Source of the DNA: Peribolospora baueri
Lineage: Eukaryota; Basidiomycota; Peribolosporomycetes; Peribolosporales; Peribolosporaceae
Assembly (NCBI GenBank): GCA_029717555.1
Contig: JAMDHS010000088.1
Span: 19,411 to 83,410, forward strand
DNA length: 64,000 bases
Reading direction: 5' to 3'
Made by a program: the position numbers and the translations under genes
In this document: in pieces, positions 3,887 to 62,000 of the stretch
How the letters are laid out: each line of letters starts with the position of its first letter
How positions within the stretch are numbered: the stretch's first letter is position 1
Notes under the pieces: model-generated
Told to the model about the DNA's origin: nothing
Seen by the model: only the letters and a program-made list of their open reading frames with translations
Database searches by the model: none

Positions 3887-5250
<1,364 letters not shown>

Positions 5251-6618
5251 CAAGCTGCTACACGCCTAAGGCTGGGTTCCTGGAGACGAGAGCCTGTCCA
5301 ACGTGCTGCAAAGGTATAGATAACGGTCGACTGAGCGCCTACGACGAGAAGTGATTCCGGCTCGTAGGCCTCGTGCAGGTCCACCATCGTTTTCACATCC
5401 ACACTCCCCTTCCGGACCCCCCAACCCCTTCTGCCCGTCCTCCAAGATGCCCAGGTTGCCCATCAACGTCAACCCTTCGTCCATCCCTCTCAGCTCCCCT
5501 CTCCTTCACAGCCGTCTCTCGCACCCTTTGGACGACATTCGCACAAATGTTGTAGTTTATGCATGCATGTCCTATTCATCTAGGGTATGAACAGCCTGTC
5601 AGATGTTTTGTACGAATGTTGTGCACGGGGAAAGGGGGAGGAGTATGGAGACCAATTAGGTAGGCACTGAGCGTATCGATTTATGAGAAGGTGCCTCGAT
5701 GCCCTCACAGTTGCAACCTGACTATCTAGAGAGCATTGTGTGGCTTGTGTAAGAAAGAGACTCACCCTTTCTAGACAGAGGGAAAAAAAAGTATTTCTTA
5801 GATTGGTCGATGGGACAGTAAAAAAAGTTCGCGACGTGACCATCACTTTTCCAGTAACGGCCTGCATTGGAAAAATCCTCTTGGGCAATGAAAAAGATTT
5901 TGGGGCTACCAGAAGGTCGTAAATTTTATGCGCATGAACTTCTTTCTCAAAAGTCTGCTAGCAGGCAGTCGAACCCTGAACTCTTGTGGATGGGCCGATC
6001 ACCTCTCACTCAGTTCATTGTAATTATCTGCTATTGGTAGTTCAGGGAATATATTATTCACACAGTGCGCGTATGCCCGCCGGAGCTCAAAAATGGACCG
6101 ATTTATTTTGTGATCGACGACGTAGCCGTCAGTGAGACAGATCAAACTTGTACGTCTCCTTCCCGTGAGGTTGAAAAAAAAAACCATTTTGTTTCTCAGC
6201 GTGAGCATTACGTGACACGAAAAAACTGAGAGCAGATGGAATTTGCAACCATCGGATTTTTAATGACGTTGACTGGATGAGTGAATGGACTGTTCGTATT
6301 TTATGGCTCGGCGAGATGGTGGGAGACGGATTTCGTGTTTGTGCCAGTGTGGTAAAGCTACTACATATGGAAGTGTTGCGAAATGTCGGGCCAGTGGCCA
6401 GTAGAATTGTGGGCGCTGTCGGGTAGACTGATTCCCCGACTGCATACAGACGAGGACGTTTAGGAACGATATTATCCGAAAGGTGGAGAAGATACGGTTG
6501 CCCATGCACATAACGTTGATGTCAGTGTCATGCTCTCTTCTCTTCCTGAAAAAAAAAAGAAAAAAAAAAAAACAGTAATCAAGTTGTCCACATGTAGGGA
6601 CGAGGGCATATAGGTCTC
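5251..6618. other. Intergenic, lower-GC than average, no supported gene
   Basis: Contains short ORFs without family resemblance and several A-runs (5785, 6172, 6548-6572). A degenerate tRNA-like B-box (5967-5975, minus strand) was examined and not accepted. Confidence 0.5.
6522..6546 (+). repeat. Direct repeat flanking the Ty3-like remnant (left copy)
   Basis: About 25 nt containing cagtgtcatgctctcttctc occurs here and again at about 8854-8878, just beyond the last recognisable integrase codons of the Ty3-like element. The pair could be what remains of LTR ends or an insertion-associated duplication. Confidence 0.55.

Positions 6619-6692
<74 letters not shown>
6619..6692 (+). repeat. (ATT)n microsatellite, about 24 units
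   Basis: An uninterrupted TTA/ATT trinucleotide run of about 74 nt. It is bracketed by a second short direct repeat: gacgagggcat followed by (a/t)tagg just before (about 6599-6615) and just after (about 6698-6714) the array. Confidence 0.95.
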
Positions 6693-6843
6693 GTAATGGA
6701 CGAGGGCATTTAGGAATCAGCCGAAGGGTGGGGTTCTGAGGACTTCCTCAGCCAGCTCCGACATGTCCACCTGACGCAGCCCGCCAATTTCAGGGCTGGA
6801 CGGGTCAAGGTGGCCCACGCCATCTCCTTCCTCCGACGAGCTG

Positions 6844-8830
6844 ATGAGGACGAGCGAGCCGGGCAAGCTCGACGAACTCATCGGAGCCTGCCTCCGCATC
6901 GACAACCGCATCAACGCGCGGAGGCAGGAGCGCCAGCTTGCCGGAGATGGAGGAAGAGGAGCTGAGAAGACGGTCAGGGGGAAGGGAGGCCTTGGAGGGG
7001 CCCGCGCCGCTGCCACGCTCGTCAGCCGGGTCGGCAGACAGGACGATGCCGGGCAGCGGCCAGGTGGAATGGTAGAAGCGGTTGAGTAAGGAAGCGTTAT
7101 CAGGAGCAGGGGTTGTGCTTCGCATGCGGCAGGAAGGGGCACGTCTCGAAGGAGTACTCGACGAGGGGCAGCAAGGGGCACGATGAAGCCGGCAGCGGCG
7201 AAGGTGAATGCGGTGTACGAAGTCACCAAGGGCGAGGGATCGAACTCTGTCTCTCTCTCGTCGCCGCGAGCCCAGCCGGAGGGCAGCCCGCTGCTGTTCA
7301 CGACCGTCAAGATTCAGGGACACCGGGCGACCATCCCCACTAAGGCGCTGGTCGACTGCGCCGCGTCCATGAATTTCATCTCCGAAGACTTTGTTCGGGC
7401 GCGCTCGTTGCGCATACTTGCTCAACGAGCCAGTTCCCGTCACCCCGTTCGGAGGAGCCGTGAAAGAAGCCCCAACGCTCACTGAAGCGTGCCGAGCCCG
7501 AGTAAGGCTCGCAGGAAGTCCGCGGTCGAGAGAGGCGACCTTCTTGGTTGCCCCGACGCGCGGCTAGGATCTTATGCTGAGTCTGCCGTTCCTCATCGAC
7601 AACGGGATTCAGCTGGACTTCGCCGTACCGGGATACCGGATCGACGGCGCGATGGTCGCGTTCGACCAACCGACGAGGCCAACGAATATTGAGGCACACG
7701 GGACGATGCGCTAGCCAGAGCTCAAGCGCCCCCCGATGTGCGATTCGTCTCGGCTCTCGAGTTCCAGCAGCCGTTGCAGCTGGAAGGACATGCCTGCGCG
7801 ACGTGCCTGGTCGTAGCTCCCAGGCTACGGCCAACGTCGTAGCGAATGTCGACGAAGACCCGGAAGACGCCCTAGGGGACGAGGATGAAATTCGCCCCCT
7901 CATCCCGTCCAAGCATCACGAGTTCGTGAGCGTCTTCTCGAAGGCGGAAGCGAGTCAGCTACCGCCAGTCACGGCCAGTCACGAAGAGCACGACGACCAT
8001 GTTCGCCGGTTCTGCAAAGCCTCAAGGCTGTTGGCTTGTACGCCAGTCCGAAGAGGCCGATTCAACCAGTCGAGTGCAGTGTCTCCGGGAGTGGAGGCAG
8101 TACTACGAAGGGAACGTCAGTGCAGTGTCTCCTGGAGTGGAGGCAGTACTGCGAAGGGGACGTCACGTCCGTCGAAGTCCTCAGCGATCACAAAGCGCTG
8201 ATGTGATTCGTCACGAAACGTCTTCTCAACCGCCGCCAAGCCCGGTGGGCTACCAAGCTCGCCGACTTCGATTTCACAATCAACTACCGGCCGGGCCTGG
8301 AGGGCGGCAAACCCGATGCATTGACGCGCAGGAGCGACGTCTATGAGGGGGGGCGACGCCGACGCGACCCATCAACGGCAAGACCCGCACGAAGGAGCTG
8401 AACTTTATGGCGCTGTTGCGGCCGGATCAGCTCAAGGCGGAAGCGAACGCGTTGGAGGTAGCGACGTTGACGACGGTCCCGGACGACATAATCTTGCTCG
8501 TCGAGGAGGCGCAAGCCAAGGACGAGAAGATTGCAGGATGGGTAGCCGAACCCGTAGCTCAGAAGCGACGAAGCTCAAGGGCAAAGGCTAGTCAGTAACC
8601 GAGTCGGGGGTGCTCCTCAGGAACGGCAAAGTTTTGGTGCCGGACACAGGAGACCTACGACTCAAGATTCTCCAGTCGAGGCACGACGCGAAGCTCGCTG
8701 GCCACCCGGGCCAGCGACGCACGTATTCGCTAGTGTCCGAACCAGCAGGACGACTGGACGGACCACCTCCCGCTCGCCGAGTTCGCGTACGATAACAAGA
8801 GCACCGGGTTCACCCGCGTCTGGAGGTGCG
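6844..8830 (+). pseudogene. Degenerate Ty3/gypsy-type retrotransposon
   Basis: Fragments appear in normal gag-pol order across shifting frames. 6844-7086 is a gag C-terminus (GKLDELIGACLRIDNRINAR). 7113 onward is a nucleocapsid knuckle CFACGRKGHVSKEY whose last Cys is replaced by Tyr. About 7340-7395 is an aspartic-protease segment (ALVDCAASMNFIS, with DCA in place of DSG/DTG). About 7850-7990 is the linker before reverse transcriptase (SKHHEFVSVFSKAEASQLPP). RNase H follows at about 8060-8345 (EVLSDHKALM, an in-frame TGA, then [20 protein letters not shown]) and an integrase HHCC-side segment at about 8640-8740 (LQSRHDAKLAGHPGQRRTY). A late integrase piece (DDWTDHLPLAEFAYDNKST) comes directly after. 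The reverse transcriptase and integrase catalytic core are essentially deleted. Cannot be autonomous. Confidence 0.8.
8073..8164 (+). repeat. 46-bp tandem duplication inside the Ty3-like RNase H region
   Basis: The unit starting agtgcagtgtctcc and ending aagggRacgtc is present twice (8073-8118 and 8119-8164) with a few mism­atches. Because 46 is not a multiple of three the duplication shifts the frame. Confidence 0.8.
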
Positions 8831-8853
8831 CGCTAGCCTAGAGGCGGTTGCTG

Positions 8854-8878
8854 TCAGTGTCATGCTCTCTTCTCTTTC
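8854..8878 (+). repeat. Direct repeat flanking the Ty3-like remnant (right copy)
   Basis: Right-hand copy of the sequence described at 6522-6546. It sits about 50 bp after the last integrase-like codons. Confidence 0.55.
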
Positions 8879-8986
8879 TTTCCGAAAACCCTGTTGTCCA
8901 ATGTCCACTTTTGTCGAAGAGGATTAAAGAGGCTGAAGATATTGGCAGCTTTGTAAGGGACACAGAAACGTCGTCATAGAAGTACA

Positions 8987-10475
8987 TTACGAAGTGGGGA
9001 GACGACTGGCCTTTTTAAGGGATTCGACGCGATGGCGCATTTCCGCCGCATTCTCCCCGATCCAACGAAGACTGTGGAGATGTGCGTTAAGAATAGTGGC
9101 CATTTGACTGATTGGCTCCTGGGTGGATCCGGGGCCTGACACGTCTGCAGGCGATTCCTCCGTTCCAGCCCCCGCGTGAGGAGCTGAGCGGGCGGTTGTA
9201 GCGCCGCCTGCGAGAGAGTTGACTTCGTCGACGATGAACGTCAGGTTGCGAGAAATGTCCGCGAGCTGGCCGTGCAAGCTTTCTGCCAATGCGTACCTGA
9301 CGAATGGGATGAAATGCTAGTTTAGTACAGCTCCTTTGAACCCGGATCCCAGCGCAGCTTGACGCTAGAAACACTCACGCTTCCTCTCTCTCAGCATCGG
9401 CAGCACCCATCGCCAGATCAACGCTGTCGCCTCCACTTCCCTGAAGGAGCTGATCTGCTTGTTTCTCATACGCCTCCAAGATCTTATCAAGGTCAGCCTG
9501 TTGACTCTCGACGTAGTCAAGGGACTGATCTATTTGCGACTGCGTCGACTCTGTCTGCGTTAGCGCGCTGTATAGGCGGGAAATCTGTCGAAGGTGAGCG
9601 AAATGAACAGTAGTGAGCATGCAGGTTGCTATTATAGAGACTGAAAGTCAGCCGGAAGGGCCGTGGTTCACCTCTCGTCCGTTTTTGACCAAGACCGCGT
9701 CCCATTCCGCAACCTCCTCAGCCTGGCTGGCAAACTCGCGCGTGCTCTCATCCAAATCCCTGGCCCACTTGTTAACGACTTCGTCCATGGTTTTGTTGCG
9801 GAGAGCGTTGAGAACCGGGGCAGTCCCGCCACCGAGCGGCTTAGCTGCTGATGTGCTGGTAGTACTTGCAAGAGCAGACGAAGTTACTGGCGTGCTTGTG
9901 GTACTTGCAAGGGCGGACGAAGTGCTCGGCGCAGTGCTCGCTGTTGCGCCGAAAGCACCAAACGGAGAGCTGACTGGGACGGACGCGACCCCACTCCCAG
10001 CAGTCTTACCCGCCAACGGCGCACTACTTCCAAACACATTCGACGTGTTCAGCGTGGTGTTACCCGCCGACAGTGTACCACTTCCAAACGAATTTGACGT
10101 GTTCAGCGTGCTGTTTGTCGCGGCACCAAAAGTGCCGAATGGAGAGGCGCTGGCCCCAGGCGTAGCCAAAGAGGAAGCAGGCGCTGCAGCCGAAGCAGAT
10201 GGCAAGCCGGAGGAGGCACCTCCACCAGTACCTGAATTAAAAAAACATCACCAAGGACGAAAAGAGAAGCATATAAGCAGGGCTAGGACGAAAGGAGAAG
10301 CATATAAGCAGGGCTCGGCAAGAGAGCGACAAGAGCTTGCTGGACGATGGACGCACCGGTTTGACCGAAAGCGCTGCCCCCGTTAAAAAGTGCTGTTGTA
10401 AGAGATACCCAGACAAGGGAATATAATAAGCATCTGTCGATGAAGAAGCTACATATGAAGCAACCACTTACACAT
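8987..10475 (-). CDS. NSP1: Nucleoporin NSP1/NUP62
   Basis: Exons complement(join(8987..9296,9379..9584,9672..10231,10357..10392,10472..10475)) encode 371 aa. The start ATG plus one base form a 4-nt first coding exon. The N-terminal half is Ser/Thr/Ala-rich with scattered FG motifs (SAFGQ, PFGTFG, NSFGSG, NVFGSS, PFGAFG). From about residue 180 it becomes the helical NSP1_C domain: MDEVVNKWARDLDESTREFA, QIDQSLDYVESQQADLDKIL, ALAESLHGQLADISRNLTFI. This domain forms the coiled-coil channel trimer (with NUP57/NUP49) and the cytoplasmic NUP82 complex in yeast, anchoring the permeability barrier. At 371 aa it is far shorter than yeast NSP1 and close to a minimal FG domain. It diverges from the armadillo gene across 188 bp. 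Confidence 0.9.
10254..10316 (+). repeat. 31-bp tandem duplication in an NSP1 intron
   Basis: Two copies of ggacgaaaRgagaagcatat followed by aagcagggct lie back to back within intron 2 of NSP1 (10232-10356). It has no coding effect. Confidence 0.8.
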
Positions 10476-54097: not shown

Positions 54098-55880
54098 GCT
54101 TCGGACCAATTTTTCGGTATGGCAGGCAGGTCGAGTGTGGTGAGGGTTGCGTGTCTAAGATGTGTACTTGTACTTATGCTCGCGCTTGTGCTTGTGCTTG
54201 TGCTTGCTTCTACTTGCACGAGCTGGCTGAGGAAAGGGAGTGAGCAGTGGAGGGGTATCGAGAGCGAGAGAGGTGGGTGGTGGTGAAGAAGGTGGACGAT
54301 GGGATGGATGGTGATGGTGATTGGACGGCTGGCGGCGGTGAAGGAATGACGATGGCGACTGCGACGTCGCGTGAAGCGAAGCGTGATCGACGGCGGGGTC
54401 GAAGCGGAAGCGCGTCGCGGGTGCTGGCCGGATGTGGCGGGGTTAGCTGTAAGGTGAGAGGGCGCCCATCTTCTTTTCTCTTCCACCCATCCCTCCATCA
54501 GACAGCAAGGAAGCAAGAACCAAGAACCAAGGGAGGTCGTGTGTCTCCCTCCTCTGCCAGTGTTCGCTCGTGGCCCTTTTTTCCCTGCTTCTCGCTTCCT
54601 TTCGCCCCGTTGGCCACCCCGAACCCATCCAGCAGGCCGCCGGTCGGGTCGGTCTGCGTGGATCACTCAGCGACGATAGACTCGGTCACGTTGTCCGTGC
54701 CAAGCTTGGCTCGTAGGTAGAGACTGGGCGCGGTGCCAAGGCATCGGGTTCGGGTCGTTGCGGACGGAGAGAGGGGCGTATACCCATATACCCATACACA
54801 CACACACACGCGCATACATGTATGCATGCGTTGCATACTCTCTACACCGCATCTTTGCTCCCCTCGCACACGGGCGCCGTGCGACATCGCTGGTGCGTCC
54901 AGCTAGCCAGCTAGTTAGCTAGTTGTCTAGCCAGTGTCGGCCCGCCGAGGAGACTTGTGGGTGCAGGCCAGCGACATGTAGACGTTGTGGACGTCGAGGG
55001 GCGCGGGTGAATGAACAAAGGCGGCGTGTCCTTCTTCGCTCGAGATGGGGAGCGTCGGAGGAGGAGCGGTCGCCCTTGCCTATGCGCTCTGCCCTCTCGA
55101 GTCGGCAGTCGTTCGTTCGTTCGTTCGTTCGTTCGTTCGTTCGTTCGTTCGTTTCGTTCGATCCATTCGTGGCCCTGATCGGCTGTCGAGCACATGGGGA
55201 AGTCGCTGCTGTCGCCTGCCCCTCCTCGCTTGCAACCTAGAACCATGACCCGGAAAAAGGCGGTGACGTAGGTGGGCCGGTGAACCCTTCCTTGGTCACG
55301 CTGATGATCAGCACCCGCTGCAGGCTCCGAAGGGAGGCCGGCTTCGGCTCTTAACTAAGAGACGATGTAGAGGCGTGTGCGTCGCGTCGGCTTGACCGAA
55401 CAGGGCGAGGTGAGGTGATGATGTAATGTGATGTGACGATGTCAAGCCATGTGCCTATTATCGCTTCTCGTTCCTGGCGATGCAATTCGTATCCACAACC
55501 ACGCGTTCTCGCTGGTGGCAGAGGAAGGGACACGCGGCGGTGGCCGTCGTTGTCGGTGTCCACGACCGGCGACCGACCGGATCGGATCGGATCGCATCGC
55601 ATCACCATTGCCATTGCCATTGCCATCACCCGTCACCCATCGCCGGCATCGCATCGTCTTACCTCCTCCCGGATCAGTCCCCCTCGGATCGCGCTGCTGG
55701 ACGGAAACGGACCATGTGAACGAAGGCACGAAGGCGGTCCCTTCCATCTCCACTCCCTGACTATCCTTCCCCTCCCCGCTCTCAAGAGGCCGCTCGCTCG
55801 TCCTCGTCTCTTCTCCGCCCCCTCCTCGTCCTCCCTCCCCCACTCCACCGCCATCCCTCCACCTCCCCCGCCTCGCTCCC
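54098..55880. other. Divergent 1.8-kb intergenic region with microsatellites
   Basis: No gene. Contains a CTTGTG/CTTATG run (54170-54210), (CA)n at about 54796-54810, GTTC units (about 55108-55150) and CCATTG repeats (55600-55627). CTAGC-type short repeats are at 54899-54935. Confidence 0.6.
55109..55152 (+). repeat. (GTTC)n tetranucleotide repeat
   Basis: About ten GTTC units in an intergenic position upstream of the zinc-finger gene. Confidence 0.9.
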
Positions 55881-57278
55881 ATGTCTCTCAAGGTCAGGAG
55901 CGCCTCCGGCCAGATCGTCTCCATCCTCAACGACGATCGAGATCGACGAGCCGCTGGAGTCCCAGGCCCTGTGCAAGGCCATCGTCGCTACCAGTGCGCC
56001 CCAAGGACAGCGGGACGCTCCTCCACCTCTTCTCCTTTCTCCACCTTGACCACAGATCCACCAGCGCAAGCCTGTCCCAAGAAGAGGTACGCTTGCACCC
56101 ACCCGGGATGCCCCAAGACCTTTTCCACCAGTGGCCACGCCGCCAGGCACAATCGCATCCACACCGGTCGAAAACCGTATAGATGCACCTTTCCAGGCTG
56201 CCACGCCCGCTTCTCCCGACAGGACAACAGCTTTCAGCACTACCGCACCCACCTCCTTGGGCCCAGGACGAGGAGGCGCGCCTCGTCCGCCGCCTCCGCC
56301 TCGTTCCACTCTGTCGATCCCCATCACAATCCCTCCCTGCTCGCTCGTGAGGCACTCGCCAGAGGCACCGCCATCATGGTCGTCCACAGCGACGATGACG
56401 ACGACGACGACGACGACGACGACGGCAGCGGGGCGGCCGCCTTCCGACGTCTCTCCGCTCCGAGGGTTCAACGTGCGACTTTGGAACCGTCGTCGTCGTC
56501 GACATTGGCGCGCCCGCCTTTGTGGATGAACGACGCCGGGGTCGACTCGCAACCTGACCATACAAGAGGTCGGAGGAGCCACTCTCTCCACCTCCCCTCC
56601 AACGGCGGCCATCTCAGACCGGACGTGCCCCCAGCGCGCTCGCTCTACGCCCACGACAGCGGCTTCATCCTCGGTCAGGAGGCCAGTCCGACTTATAGCC
56701 CCATCTCACGCCCACATTCCCTCGTCGAGTGCGGTGGCCGCCTGCCGTCCGCGACGACCTTGCCTTCTCTGTCTTCTCTTTCGCTCTACGGCCTTGCCAA
56801 CGCTTCGGCCGACGCCGCCGGCGGCATGTTCCCTCCCATCGGCACTTTTTCGCAGAGCCTACCGTCTCCTTTGCTTCGACTTGGCCAGCCCGCTCCGAGG
56901 TCGTCGCCCTCTCTGTCCTCCTCTTCGCTGTCCGCCAGCTCGACGCCGTGGACGTCGCCTTCGCAGCCTTCGTCGCCCGTCCCGCAATCCTTCTACTACA
57001 CTAGCGTTACCGCCATCCCATCGGACCGCCACCGCTCCTCGTCCAGCTCGGCGTCGCGTCCTCGCTCTGAGTGCTTCTCCGCCCCCTTGGCGCCACCGCC
57101 ACCGCCCTTCGCCATGCCCCCGCCGCGCGCCCGTTCGCTCCGCAAGCATCCCCAACGGCCGCCATTTCCGTCCTCTCCACCGCCGTTGTCCTTGGAGACG
57201 GATGGCCTCCTCACGTGGATCTGCGCAGGCGCGAGCCAGCTCTCGCCCGTGCCAGAGGCGCACCCGGACACCGTGTGA
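55881..57278 (+). CDS. C2H2 zinc-finger transcription factor, NRG1-like
   Basis: Apparently intronless, 465 aa. Two adjacent C2H2 fingers lie at about residues 71-127: YACTHPGCPKTFSTSGHAAR, HNRIHTGRKPYRCTFPGCHA and RFSRQDNSFQHYRTHL. TSGH.ARHNRIHTG and FSR.DN..QHYRTH are the recognition-helix wording of Nrg1/Nrg2-type repressors, which act with Tup1-Ssn6 on glucose- and filamentation-regulated genes in ascomycete yeasts. The remainder is Ser/Pro-rich with an Asp run (residues ~174-182) from a GAC repeat. The first ATG gives MSLKVRSASGQIVSI. Function by analogy only. Confidence 0.8.
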   Translation: MSLKVRSASGQIVSILNDDRDRRAAGVPGPVQGHRRYQCAPRTAGRSSTSSPFSTLTTDPPAQACPKKRYACTHPGCPKTFSTSGHAARHNRIHTGRKPYRCTFPGCHARFSRQDNSFQHYRTHLLGPRTRRRASSAASASFHSVDPHHNPSLLAREALARGTAIMVVHSDDDDDDDDDDDGSGAAAFRRLSAPRVQRATLEPSSSSTLARPPLWMNDAGVDSQPDHTRGRRSHSLHLPSNGGHLRPDVPPARSLYAHDSGFILGQEASPTYSPISRPHSLVECGGRLPSATTLPSLSSLSLYGLANASADAAGGMFPPIGTFSQSLPSPLLRLGQPAPRSSPSLSSSSLSASSTPWTSPSQPSSPVPQSFYYTSVTAIPSDRHRSSSSSASRPRSECFSAPLAPPPPPFAMPPPRARSLRKHPQRPPFPSSPPPLSLETDGLLTWICAGASQLSPVPEAHPDTV

Positions 57279-57789: not shown

Positions 57790-58149
57790 CCTGCGAGAGG
57801 TCCAGTTCTGATCGCACAAGGCCTCTCAACACGCGGCTTTCTTGACGATAGAACTGGAGGTGGTTCTACTATAAATCCTCCAAATACACTTCATTCTTAT
57901 ATTAATTCTTGGACTACTTCAAGACATGGATTAACATTAGAGATGCGAACTATTGGGGGAGGTTTTGATAATTATTATTTTCTATCTGGTCCTAAAGTAC
58001 CTAATTATCTTAATATATTTATTGATCTTCATCCAAAGATAATATTAGATGCTAAATCTAGTTTTATTTTAAATTGTTTTACAGAGTTCCATGTTCGTAC
58101 TCTTGATCGATGGACGGACAAGAGACTGGACCGATCGGATCGCGTGTAA
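57790..58149 (+). other. AT-rich island carrying a stop-free frame of foreign composition
   Basis: From about 57841 to 58095 base composition changes abruptly to A/T-rich, with A/T third positions, inside GC-rich DNA. One frame is open from 57790 to the TAA at 58147-58149 and reads through the island: FLDDRTGGGSTINPPNTLHS, INSWTTSRHGLTLEMRTIGG, GFDNYYFLSGPKVPNYLNIF, IDLHPKIILDAKSSFILNCF. GC-rich flanks in the same frame look like chance extension. It resembles neither the neighbouring genes nor the retroelements. Possible sources are mitochondrial DNA, a linear mitochondrial plasmid, an endogenous viral fragment or bacterial DNA. I cannot assign a family. Confidence 0.5.
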
Positions 58150-59005
58150 GATGAACGTTAAACCATTCAACTAATCCCCTATGAATAGATGGACGGTTAA
58201 GCGCGACTCGGCGTCGGACATAGCCGGACGACGGCCGACGGCGGCGTGGGCCGTCCCCGCGCACGCGAACGAACAGTTCGTCTGGCGAGACACGACGGAA
58301 GCCGGGAACGACAAGACGGCTCGGTGGGTCAGCCGACGACGACGACGACGACCACCACCACCACCATCACCAACCTCGTCCAGACAGACCACACCACACC
58401 ACACCACGTCACTCCATCTGCTCTCGCTCCGACTCGGCAGCCACATAGACAAGACAAGACGGCGCAAGCCACGCTGACGCTGCGTCAGATCAGATCACAT
58501 CGCACGGACGGACGACTGCTCTTCCCTCTTTCTTTCCTCCCTTACCGCCCTCTCCGCTCTTCCTGCCTTGCCCGCCCTGCCTGCCTCGCCTGCCCTCCAG
58601 TTGCCTCGGACCGACGACAGACAGACGGACGAACGGACGGACGGACCAGCTCGCACGTCCAGGAGAGCTAGCTAGCTAGTTAGATAATTAACTGATCTAC
58701 AAAGGACACGTCGACAGGCCGACACAGATCGAACGAACGGCCCGTCGCTATCCCCCTATCCGTCTCATCGCCTTCGCCCGCCCACCTACCTACCTACCTG
58801 CATACCTGCATTGTCTGCCTTGCCCGCGCTTCTCTCCCAACCGACCACCGACCACCAGTCGACCTGGCGACCTCCCCAATCCCCCACTCTCTTTTCCTTC
58901 TCGCATATCCCATCCGAACTCGAACTCGAACTCGCACCGCTTGCTTGATTGATTGATTGGTCGATCGGTCGATCGATCAATTGACCGACAGACGGACCGC
59001 CTGCG
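58150..59005. other. Intergenic, promoter/leader of AP-2 alpha, simple repeats
   Basis: Short tandem tracts: CGA/CCA triplets (58335-58375), GGAC (58620-58645), CTAG (58668-58682), CTAC (58784-58800), GATT/GATCG (58945-58978). No gene. Confidence 0.6.
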
Positions 59006-62000
59006 ATGGCGAACACGAGCATGCGGGGCCTCACCCAGGTACGAGAAGCTCGGCTCGGCTCGGGAGACGGGAGACGGGTGCCGCCCTTCCTAGTGCTCAC
59101 GCTTGCCTCTCTTATTCTTTCTTTTCCCTTTTCCATCATTTTAAAAAGTACATCGCCGACCTCCGCGCGTGCAGGGTGAGGGAGCTGGAGGAGAAGCGAA
59201 TCAATCGGGAAATGGCACACATCCGCCAGAAGTTCAAGGGTGAGTTCATAGTTTGTATCTTAGTTGACCTCGGGCGGAGGGAGACGGTCGGACGAGCACG
59301 CATGCTTTCTTCGGTAGACTTTGTTCGCTTCCAAGCTCACGGCAATACGCACATATTCTCTCTCTTGACCGCCCAGAGGCGAACCTGGACGGATACCAGA
59401 AGAAAAAGTATCTCGCCAAGATCATCTTTACCTACATTCTCGGCTATCAGGTCGATATTGGACACATGGAGGCCGTCAACTTGATTTCCAGTCAGAAATA
59501 CTCAGAAAAACAGATCGTACGTTTCTCCCTCCTCTGTCCGCACGCTCCAGGCCGACCGATTGACCCTCCCGCTCCGTTCGCGCATCCGTTTTCCAGGGCT
59601 ATCTCGCCCTTACCCTCCTCATGCACGAGAACAGCGATATAGTCCGACTCGTGGTCAACTCGATACGAAAGGACCTGGACGACATGAACGAGGTCAACAA
59701 CTGCCTCGCCCTCCACGCCATCGCCAACATCGGCGGAAGGGAAATGGCAGAGTCGCTTGCTGACGACGTCCACCGATTGCTGATCAGCCCGTGAGTTGGT
59801 TCACCGTCAGCGGATCCCGGCCGACAGGCTAACGCCCATATCCTTCCTTTTTTATTGGCCGCGCAGGACGTCTCGAACGTTCGTCAAAAAGAAGGCCGCA
59901 CTCACCAGCCTTCGTCTGTACCGGAAGCACCCTGATGTCATTCCGGCCGAGGAGTGGGCTTTGCGTATCGTGTCGATCATGGACGATCAGGACTTGGTGA
60001 GTCAATGTCGGTTCCGCTCTCGTACCGTGCCGGTCGTTCCGAGCTCACGCCGCCCGCTCCTCCCCTCCGTCAACGACAGGGCGTGTGCTTGGCGGTCACG
60101 AGTCTGGTCATGACTCTGGCCCAAGACCACCTGGACGCTTACGCCGTTTGTTACCAAAAGGCGGTCAATCGGTTGAATAAGGTGAGTGCCATCCGTCCGC
60201 GGCGTGTCGTACGATTTCCTTCGGGCTTGCCATCGACGACGCCGAGGTTTTGGTCGTTCGATTTGCAGATCGTCATCGAAGAGGACTACACAGTGGATTA
60301 CCTCTACTACAAGATCCCGAACCCCTGGCTGCAGGTCAAGCTGCTCCGATTGCTCCAATACTACCCTCCGTCCGGTGAGCGCCGCGTGGGCTTCTGTTTC
60401 GTGCCCGTGCCGTTATGAGCGCGTCGCTGACCCTTTCTTTTGAGGGGGGTTTGACTCGTTCAGATGACCCGACGAATAAGATGATTTTGCACAACGTGTT
60501 GCAGACCATCCTTACCAACTCGCAGGACACGCCGAAGAACGTCCAACACAACAACGCCCAAAACGCGGTGTTGTTCGAAGCGATCAACTTGGCCATCCAC
60601 CTCGACGCCGGGAGCACCATCGTCGAGCACGCAGCGAGGTTGCTTGGCCGCTTCATCCTGTCCCGGGAGACGAACGTGCGATATCTCGGCTTGGACACGA
60701 TGGCTCACTTGGCGGCCTGCACCGACTCGCTCGAATCGATCAAGAAGCACCAGGACACCATCATCCTCTCCCTTCGCGACAAGGACATCTCGGTCCGACG
60801 ACGAGGACTCGATCTGCTGTACAGCATGTGCGACGTCACCAACGCCAAAGTCATCGTGGGCGAGCTGCTCAAGTACCTCCAGGTGGCCGATTACGCCCTG
60901 CGCGAGGAGATGGTCCTCAAGATTGCCATCCTTACCGAAAAGTTTGCGACCGAGTACGAATGGTACGTCGACACCATCTTGCAGCTCATTAGCACGGCGG
61001 GCGACCACGTCGGCGAGGAGGTTTGGTATCGCATCGTCCAGATCGTCACCAACACGGAGGAACTGCAAGAGTATGCCGCTGGCAAGGTTTTCGACTATCT
61101 CCGCCGTCAGACTTGTCACGAGATCATGATCAAACTCAGGTGAGCGTCGTCCTTTCTCGTTCCTCCTCTATCAGCTACTACTGGCTGGTTAACCGACTTG
61201 ACCGTCGCTTCTCGGTCTCGGTCTGTCTCGAGCAGCGCGTACATCCTCGGCGAGTTCGGCCATCTCATCGCCAATAACCCGGGTTCGAGCCCGATCGAGC
61301 AATTCCACGCTTTGCACTCCAAATCGCATCTCTGCTCGTCTGCGACGCGCGCCATCCTCCTCTCCACGTACATCAAGTGGGTCAACATCTTCCCGGAGAT
61401 CAAGGACCGGATCCTCTACGTCTTCGACCGGTATCGGCACGTCCTCGACGCCGAGCTCCAGCAGCGAGCTTGTGAATACGCGGCCGTGGCGAAGATGGCC
61501 GACGACGAGTTGCTGGCCACCATGTGCGAGGAAATGCCGGCTTTCCCAGAGCGGGAGAGCGCGATCCTGAGCCGACTTAACAGGAAGCACGGCGATACGG
61601 AGGACAAGCGTACGTGGATCATCGGCGGCAAGGACGTCAACAAGTCACAAGACGCGGTGAGGTTCAAGAGCATGCGCAAGACCACGCTCCCCGATATGGC
61701 GGCGCCGCGGTCTCCGGCCGAGGTGCCGCCGCCGCTGCCGTCGCCGCGACCACCGGGCGCAAATGGCGGTACGGCGAACGGCAATGGCAGCGCCACGGAC
61801 GATATCATGGCCGGATTGATGGGGCTCGACATGTCCGCGCCCGCTCTGTCTCCCACGGCGACGGCGACGGCAAGTGGCGGCGACGGAAAGCCGGCGGTGA
61901 TGGTATCGCCTGCGCCGTCGCCTTCCGTGAACGGAGCGTTCCCCGGCCCGCCGCCTATAACGCACGGCATGGAGAAGTACTACCAGCGACTGTGCTTCAA

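Follow-up and report, generated by a model that had tools for sequence, protein, structure and literature searches.

The locus described here raises a simple question, namely what a short AT-rich stretch with an uninterrupted reading frame is doing between two genes of a GC-rich chromosome. In the window, by which we mean the whole 64,000-nucleotide stretch analysed, the overall GC content is 57.7%, and positions 57841-58095 have a GC content of 29.4%, against an average of 0.577 over all windows of 255 bases (sd 0.053; z -5.3). One other stretch, near 6465, is comparably GC-poor (0.286), and after these two the next lowest 255-base window has a GC content of 0.416; this other AT-rich part of the window, read by eye, consists at 6540-6700 of a poly-A tract and then a long ATT microsatellite. 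The frame at 57790-58149 runs for 119 codons without a stop. These values bear out an earlier sequence-only reading, which had described an AT-rich, open-frame island in a GC-rich chromosome and had held that its composition differs from that of local nuclear genes: GC3 is 0.08 in the mitochondrion-like portion of the island (57859-58107) and reaches 0.74 in the zinc-finger-like frame on the left and 0.80 at 60430-61143 on the right. The same reading had proposed an insert of organellar, plasmid, viral or bacterial DNA, recent enough to keep its frame. Based on the evidence set out below, the island is very probably a composite NUMT of the same organism's lineage, captured between genes, most likely as filler during the repair of a break. 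The feature extends further to the right than first delimited, up to 58188, and its parts are listed in Table 1.

Table 1. Features of the island and of its nuclear neighbourhood (positions in the window).
Feature	Position	Strand	Basis
Left neighbour, weak C2H2 zinc-finger similarity	55761..57278	+	zf-C2H2, E 6.7e-05, 23.6 bits
Left-hand portion of the frame, perhaps filler or nuclear sequence of the target site	57790..57858	.	Not recognisably mitochondrial
Piece 1, mitochondrial: 83 codons from the interior of a GIY-YIG homing-endonuclease gene	57859..58107	+	Protein relatives, GC3, relict
Inter-piece 32 nt, filler or nuclear	58108..58139	.	No significant mtDNA match
Piece 2, mitochondrial and inverted: initial 41 nt of the tRNA-Val(UAC) gene with 8 nt of leader	58140..58188	-	blastn
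Neighbour on the right, adaptin large-subunit gene (exon)	60379..61143	+	Adaptin_N, E 2.7e-52

The protein family of the island, which the sequence-only reading could not name, was recovered by a search of 5.8 billion proteins, in which the translation found four relatives with E values from 2.6e-27 to 1.8e-15. The best of them, P0001 (E 2.6e-27, with 64% identity across 70% of the query), and P0002 are the two that extend further upstream, and both contain Pfam GIY-YIG above the cut-off; in P0003 and P0004 the domain scan gave no such match. When P0002 was used as the query, 22 proteins including itself were obtained, among which P0006 carries Pfam GIY-YIG slightly under the cut-off and P0014, a protein without the N-terminus, had no match in the Pfam scan. 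Since the aligned part starts with the GSTINP segment, just past the GIY-YIG motif, and ends at about the LLE segment of the conserved HVKLLE, the main piece of the island is a segment from within a GIY-YIG homing-endonuclease gene. The assignment of its final four codons (58096-58107) is uncertain, and at either end the 119-codon frame (57790-57858 on the left, the part beyond 58107 on the right) fails to align with the protein relatives. Within piece 1 the 83 codons are open and contain no in-frame TGA. Among the columns represented by at least eight relatives, the island deviates at 8 of the 43 that are conserved in at least 90% of them, three of these deviations being at the edges (positions 1, 81 and 83), and at the end of the island the conserved glutamate of the relatives is either replaced by aspartate or already lies beyond the insert. 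Searches with the fragment itself against Pfam, PHROGs and PDB gave nothing convincing: Pfam GIY-YIG did not match the island even at E 10, and a whole-genome search with this family missed it and found two other mitochondrial genes. A likeness to the photosystem protein PsaL (Pfam E 0.16; PDB E 0.049) is attributed to chance, given that the GIY-YIG relatives reach E 2.6e-27. The viral part of the earlier proposal found no support, as the island has no match in PHROGs and none of the 80 pattern matches obtained in one scan of viral contigs encodes a relative; on these two results a viral or phage origin is rejected.

The organellar part of the proposal is supported by each of the two pieces independently. 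Two contigs of the assembly, C68 (33.3% GC) and C20 (28.6% GC), are mitochondrial; cox1 pieces are present on both, and C20 further contains both rRNA genes, 11 tRNA genes and nad5. At C20:34959-35403, flanked by frames for the N-terminal part of nad5 on one side and for the C-terminal part on the other, lies a degenerate relative of the island, and at the DNA level the two agree in 81 of 120 aligned columns (C20:34997-35113, E 1.7e-05). Just upstream of this relict, an N-terminal stretch of the endonuclease can be made out by eye in another frame; also by eye, the relict has no counterpart of about the first 30 codons of the island, those before the GGGF segment, and stops break the rest. The GC3 of the last nad5 exon on C20 is 0.08, and that of the frame in which the nad5 N-terminus is fused to a LAGLIDADG intron reading frame is 0.18. 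In the whole genome, a DNA search with the island matched its own place alone, and a search with its protein returned the island, the relict and a place on C118 (E 0.156, 31% identity), the last being judged a chance match, at a locus without any mtDNA match. The island shares approximately 56% protein identity with the relict, which is the sole relative found in the mtDNA, and the closeness of the two is judged on about 50 residues.

Several comparisons bear on how closely the island and the relict are connected. When the island and 23 relatives, without P0024, were compared by tblastn with C20:34900-35200, the island scored highest of the 24 sequences, with 48.9 bits against 42.7 for the next, P0017, P0019, P0022 and P0023 being aligned trivially, over 4-7 residues only. 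Likewise, a T at island position 75 is common to the island and the relict and absent in all other relatives. In a MAFFT alignment, which places the insertion of the relict differently, island and relict are identical at 20 of 46 positions, a value equal to that of several relatives. The top tblastn score suggests that the island comes from the same lineage as the relict, prior to its decay; the MAFFT count, which does not set the island apart from the relatives, speaks against this closeness. An intact or near-identical source of piece 1 was not found in the assembled mtDNA, and its organellar origin therefore rests on the protein family, the codon composition and the decayed relative. As an intact endonuclease copy of the organism's own was not found, piece 1 might instead stem from a mitochondrial plasmid or from mtDNA of foreign origin; nevertheless, the island is the best of 24 sequences against the organism's own relict, the T at position 75 is exclusive to both and the neighbouring tRNA-Val piece is the organism's own, and we regard such a source as improbable. 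The mtDNA assembly, in which 13 tRNA genes are found and many, not clearly all, of the core genes are recognised by eye among the open frames, looks incomplete; cox3 was not recognised by eye among the frames of at least 110 codons, and an intact source copy may sit in unassembled mtDNA. On C68, two long open frames (5105-7666 and 7835-10360) start with identical residues, and a group II intron match lies within some 100 bases downstream of each; the two probably represent a group II intron reading frame that was duplicated.

Returning to an origin in the organism's own mtDNA, piece 2 provides a second match. It is identical to C20:8438-8486 at 47 of 49 positions (80.6 bits, E 1.9e-17 in blastn), and the whole-genome search returned the same tRNA-Val match with an E value of 1.7e-15; the tRNA-Val gene itself lies at L009:8446-8518 and matches Rfam tRNA. 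With 50 first-order randomised versions of the mtDNA, the best match in the window reached 40.1 bits, as compared with 80.6 for piece 2. The claim of the sequence-only reading that the insert was recent enough to keep its frame fared well as regards the frame, which is open over 83 codons, and its recency is plausible, with 2 of 49 tRNA positions and 8 of 43 conserved residues changed. Around the pieces, the segment at 57790-57858 had no significant mtDNA match, and the genome search returned only its own place; the 32 nt between the pieces had no second copy genome-wide. A 9-nt inverted repeat lies within the left segment (57801-57809 and 57850-57858), a 17-nt direct repeat (82%) is found at 58106-58122 and 58185-58201, and there is an inverted similarity (85%) between 58125-58137 and 57794-57806. 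These border repeats were considered as traces of templated repair and given no weight, as they are short, were found post hoc and lie in a repeat-rich stretch.

A NUMT is expected to resemble the mtDNA of its own organism and to have nuclear sequence on both sides. Similarity to the organism's own mtDNA is found in the tRNA-Val piece (47 of 49 positions) and in the match to the relict (81 of 120 columns), and the flanks carry the zinc-finger-like and the adaptin genes, the former with a score below the Pfam cut-off of 25.2 bits and the latter with a likely start codon, read by eye, near 59006. A complex NUMT joins at least two non-contiguous mtDNA sources, and those found here are C20:34997-35113 and, inverted, C20:8438-8486. 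Each piece, in the orientation given in Table 1, has a relative in the organism's own mtDNA, and other composite NUMTs occur in the genome. Two unrelated mitochondrial places are thus represented next to each other between nuclear genes, and for this reason we interpret the island as a composite NUMT. Two or more short pieces of mtDNA, one of them inverted, would have been joined and captured between the zinc-finger-like gene and the adaptin gene, most likely as filler during the closure of a double-strand break by end joining; both pieces would have entered together. Piece 1 would probably derive from an earlier, intact state of the endonuclease copy in the nad5 region, and piece 2 comes from the mitochondrial tRNA-Val gene. 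Because 32 nt lie between the pieces, the window itself has no clean end-joining signature at its junctions.

Mitochondrial reads misjoined into a nuclear contig could produce a similar picture, and the assembly does contain suspicious overlaps, with 127 bases common to the end of C68, the start of C20 and the start of C64, the overlap of C64 being a possible mis-join. Such a chimaera would be expected to carry the letters of the current mtDNA, and the differences that separate both pieces from the assembled mtDNA, 2 of 49 positions in the tRNA piece and a protein identity of about 56% in the endonuclease piece, therefore count against it; in addition, the pieces are internal to an 83-kb contig with nuclear sequence on either side, which makes this explanation very improbable. 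A domesticated or expressed nuclear gene, to which the unbroken 119-codon frame and an internal ATG opening 68 residues might point, is hardly credible, since the frame starts past the GIY-YIG motif and misses the catalytic N-terminus, the conserved terminal glutamate is aspartate or outside the insert, the codon use is mitochondrial and the frame enters sequence foreign to the family at both ends. The captured fragment presumably has no present function.

The window is not an isolated case. Using as queries five 10-kb stretches of C20, which cover 50,000 of the 73,599 mtDNA bases, at least 36 nuclear places with mtDNA matches were found, the window included, after matches outside C20 and C68 had been merged within 1 kb and C64:1-127 dropped. 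A piece of at least 85% identity is present in 30 of them, and some of the other six may be due to chance or to shared repeats. Chains of separate mtDNA pieces were recognised in 6 of the 22 places inspected (the window and 21 others), namely the window, C15, C110, C90:166k, C101 and C120; C22, in which two pieces come from one mtDNA neighbourhood, was left out of this count. Considering only junctions that overlap or are at most 2 nt apart, by which the larger spacings of C101, C120, C90 and the window are set aside, nine were available in other loci, and they comprise overlaps of 0-3 nt in six, gaps of 1-2 nt in two and an overlap of 15 nt in one. A neat chained NUMT is found at C110:484-632 (L063), where four stretches of mtDNA, each 30-45 nt long and taken from a different mitochondrial place, follow one another, overlapping by 2-3 nt or separated by 2 nt. 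The longest NUMT, C94:214371-215124 (L044), spans 754 bases, is 97% identical to a portion of the gene for the mitochondrial small-subunit rRNA and could mislead marker-based identification. The 127 bases common to the end of C68 and the starts of C20 and C64 are identical in all three; beyond them C64 has a GC content of about 57%, and its overlap represents a NUMT that interrupted the assembly or, alternatively, a join made in assembling.

The feature is thus real and of an ordinary kind, and its explanation accounts for an anomaly that could pass for horizontal transfer or for a new gene. The genome is strewn with short, sometimes chained scraps of mtDNA, which probably mark sites where chromosomes broke and were patched. 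What is provisionally unusual is that this scrap retains sequence that is missing or broken by stops in the mtDNA copy found. The chances seem to us evenly balanced that the nucleus keeps here the last readable core of a selfish mitochondrial gene now dead in the mitochondrion itself; as the mtDNA assembly seems incomplete, the contrast between a sequence kept in the nucleus and lost in the mtDNA is provisional. Some of the scraps may preserve states of mobile introns that the mtDNA has lost, and if the island is indeed such a fossil, the NUMTs of this genome would form a record for dating past mitochondrial intron invasions. A passage in a paper on primates refers to NUMTs as "molecular fossils" (PMC2820518), and fungal NUMTs are mentioned in portions of three reports (PMC3284337, PMC7202290, PMC12125605). 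Judging from titles and the beginnings of abstracts in the literature on NUMTs with homing endonucleases or mitochondrial introns, no paper was plainly devoted to nuclear fossils of lost intron endonucleases.

Compared with known systems, piece 1 belongs to the family of mitochondrial GIY-YIG intron homing endonucleases. A working member of this family requires the motif and the catalytic domain, whereas the island starts after the GIY-YIG motif and has no C-terminal half, and it is consequently not a working endonuclease. The insertion of mtDNA during double-strand break repair was demonstrated in Saccharomyces cerevisiae by Ricchetti et al. 1999, as cited in a passage of PMC5499181; going by that passage, scraps of mtDNA were likewise captured there, and in the present case the mechanism is read from the anatomy of the locus, with no induced break. 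According to PMC6215612, complex insertions, in which several mtDNA fragments are joined, arise by end joining, bear its signatures and have been identified in yeast and humans. In composite NUMTs of yeasts, plants and people, several short mtDNA fragments from different places and in different orientations occupy one nuclear site, as they do here. Unlike in those cases, the pieces in the window are short (49 and approximately 249 nt), and for one of them the assembled mtDNA contains no intact source. In the other loci of this genome, six of the nine close junctions overlap by 0-3 nt.
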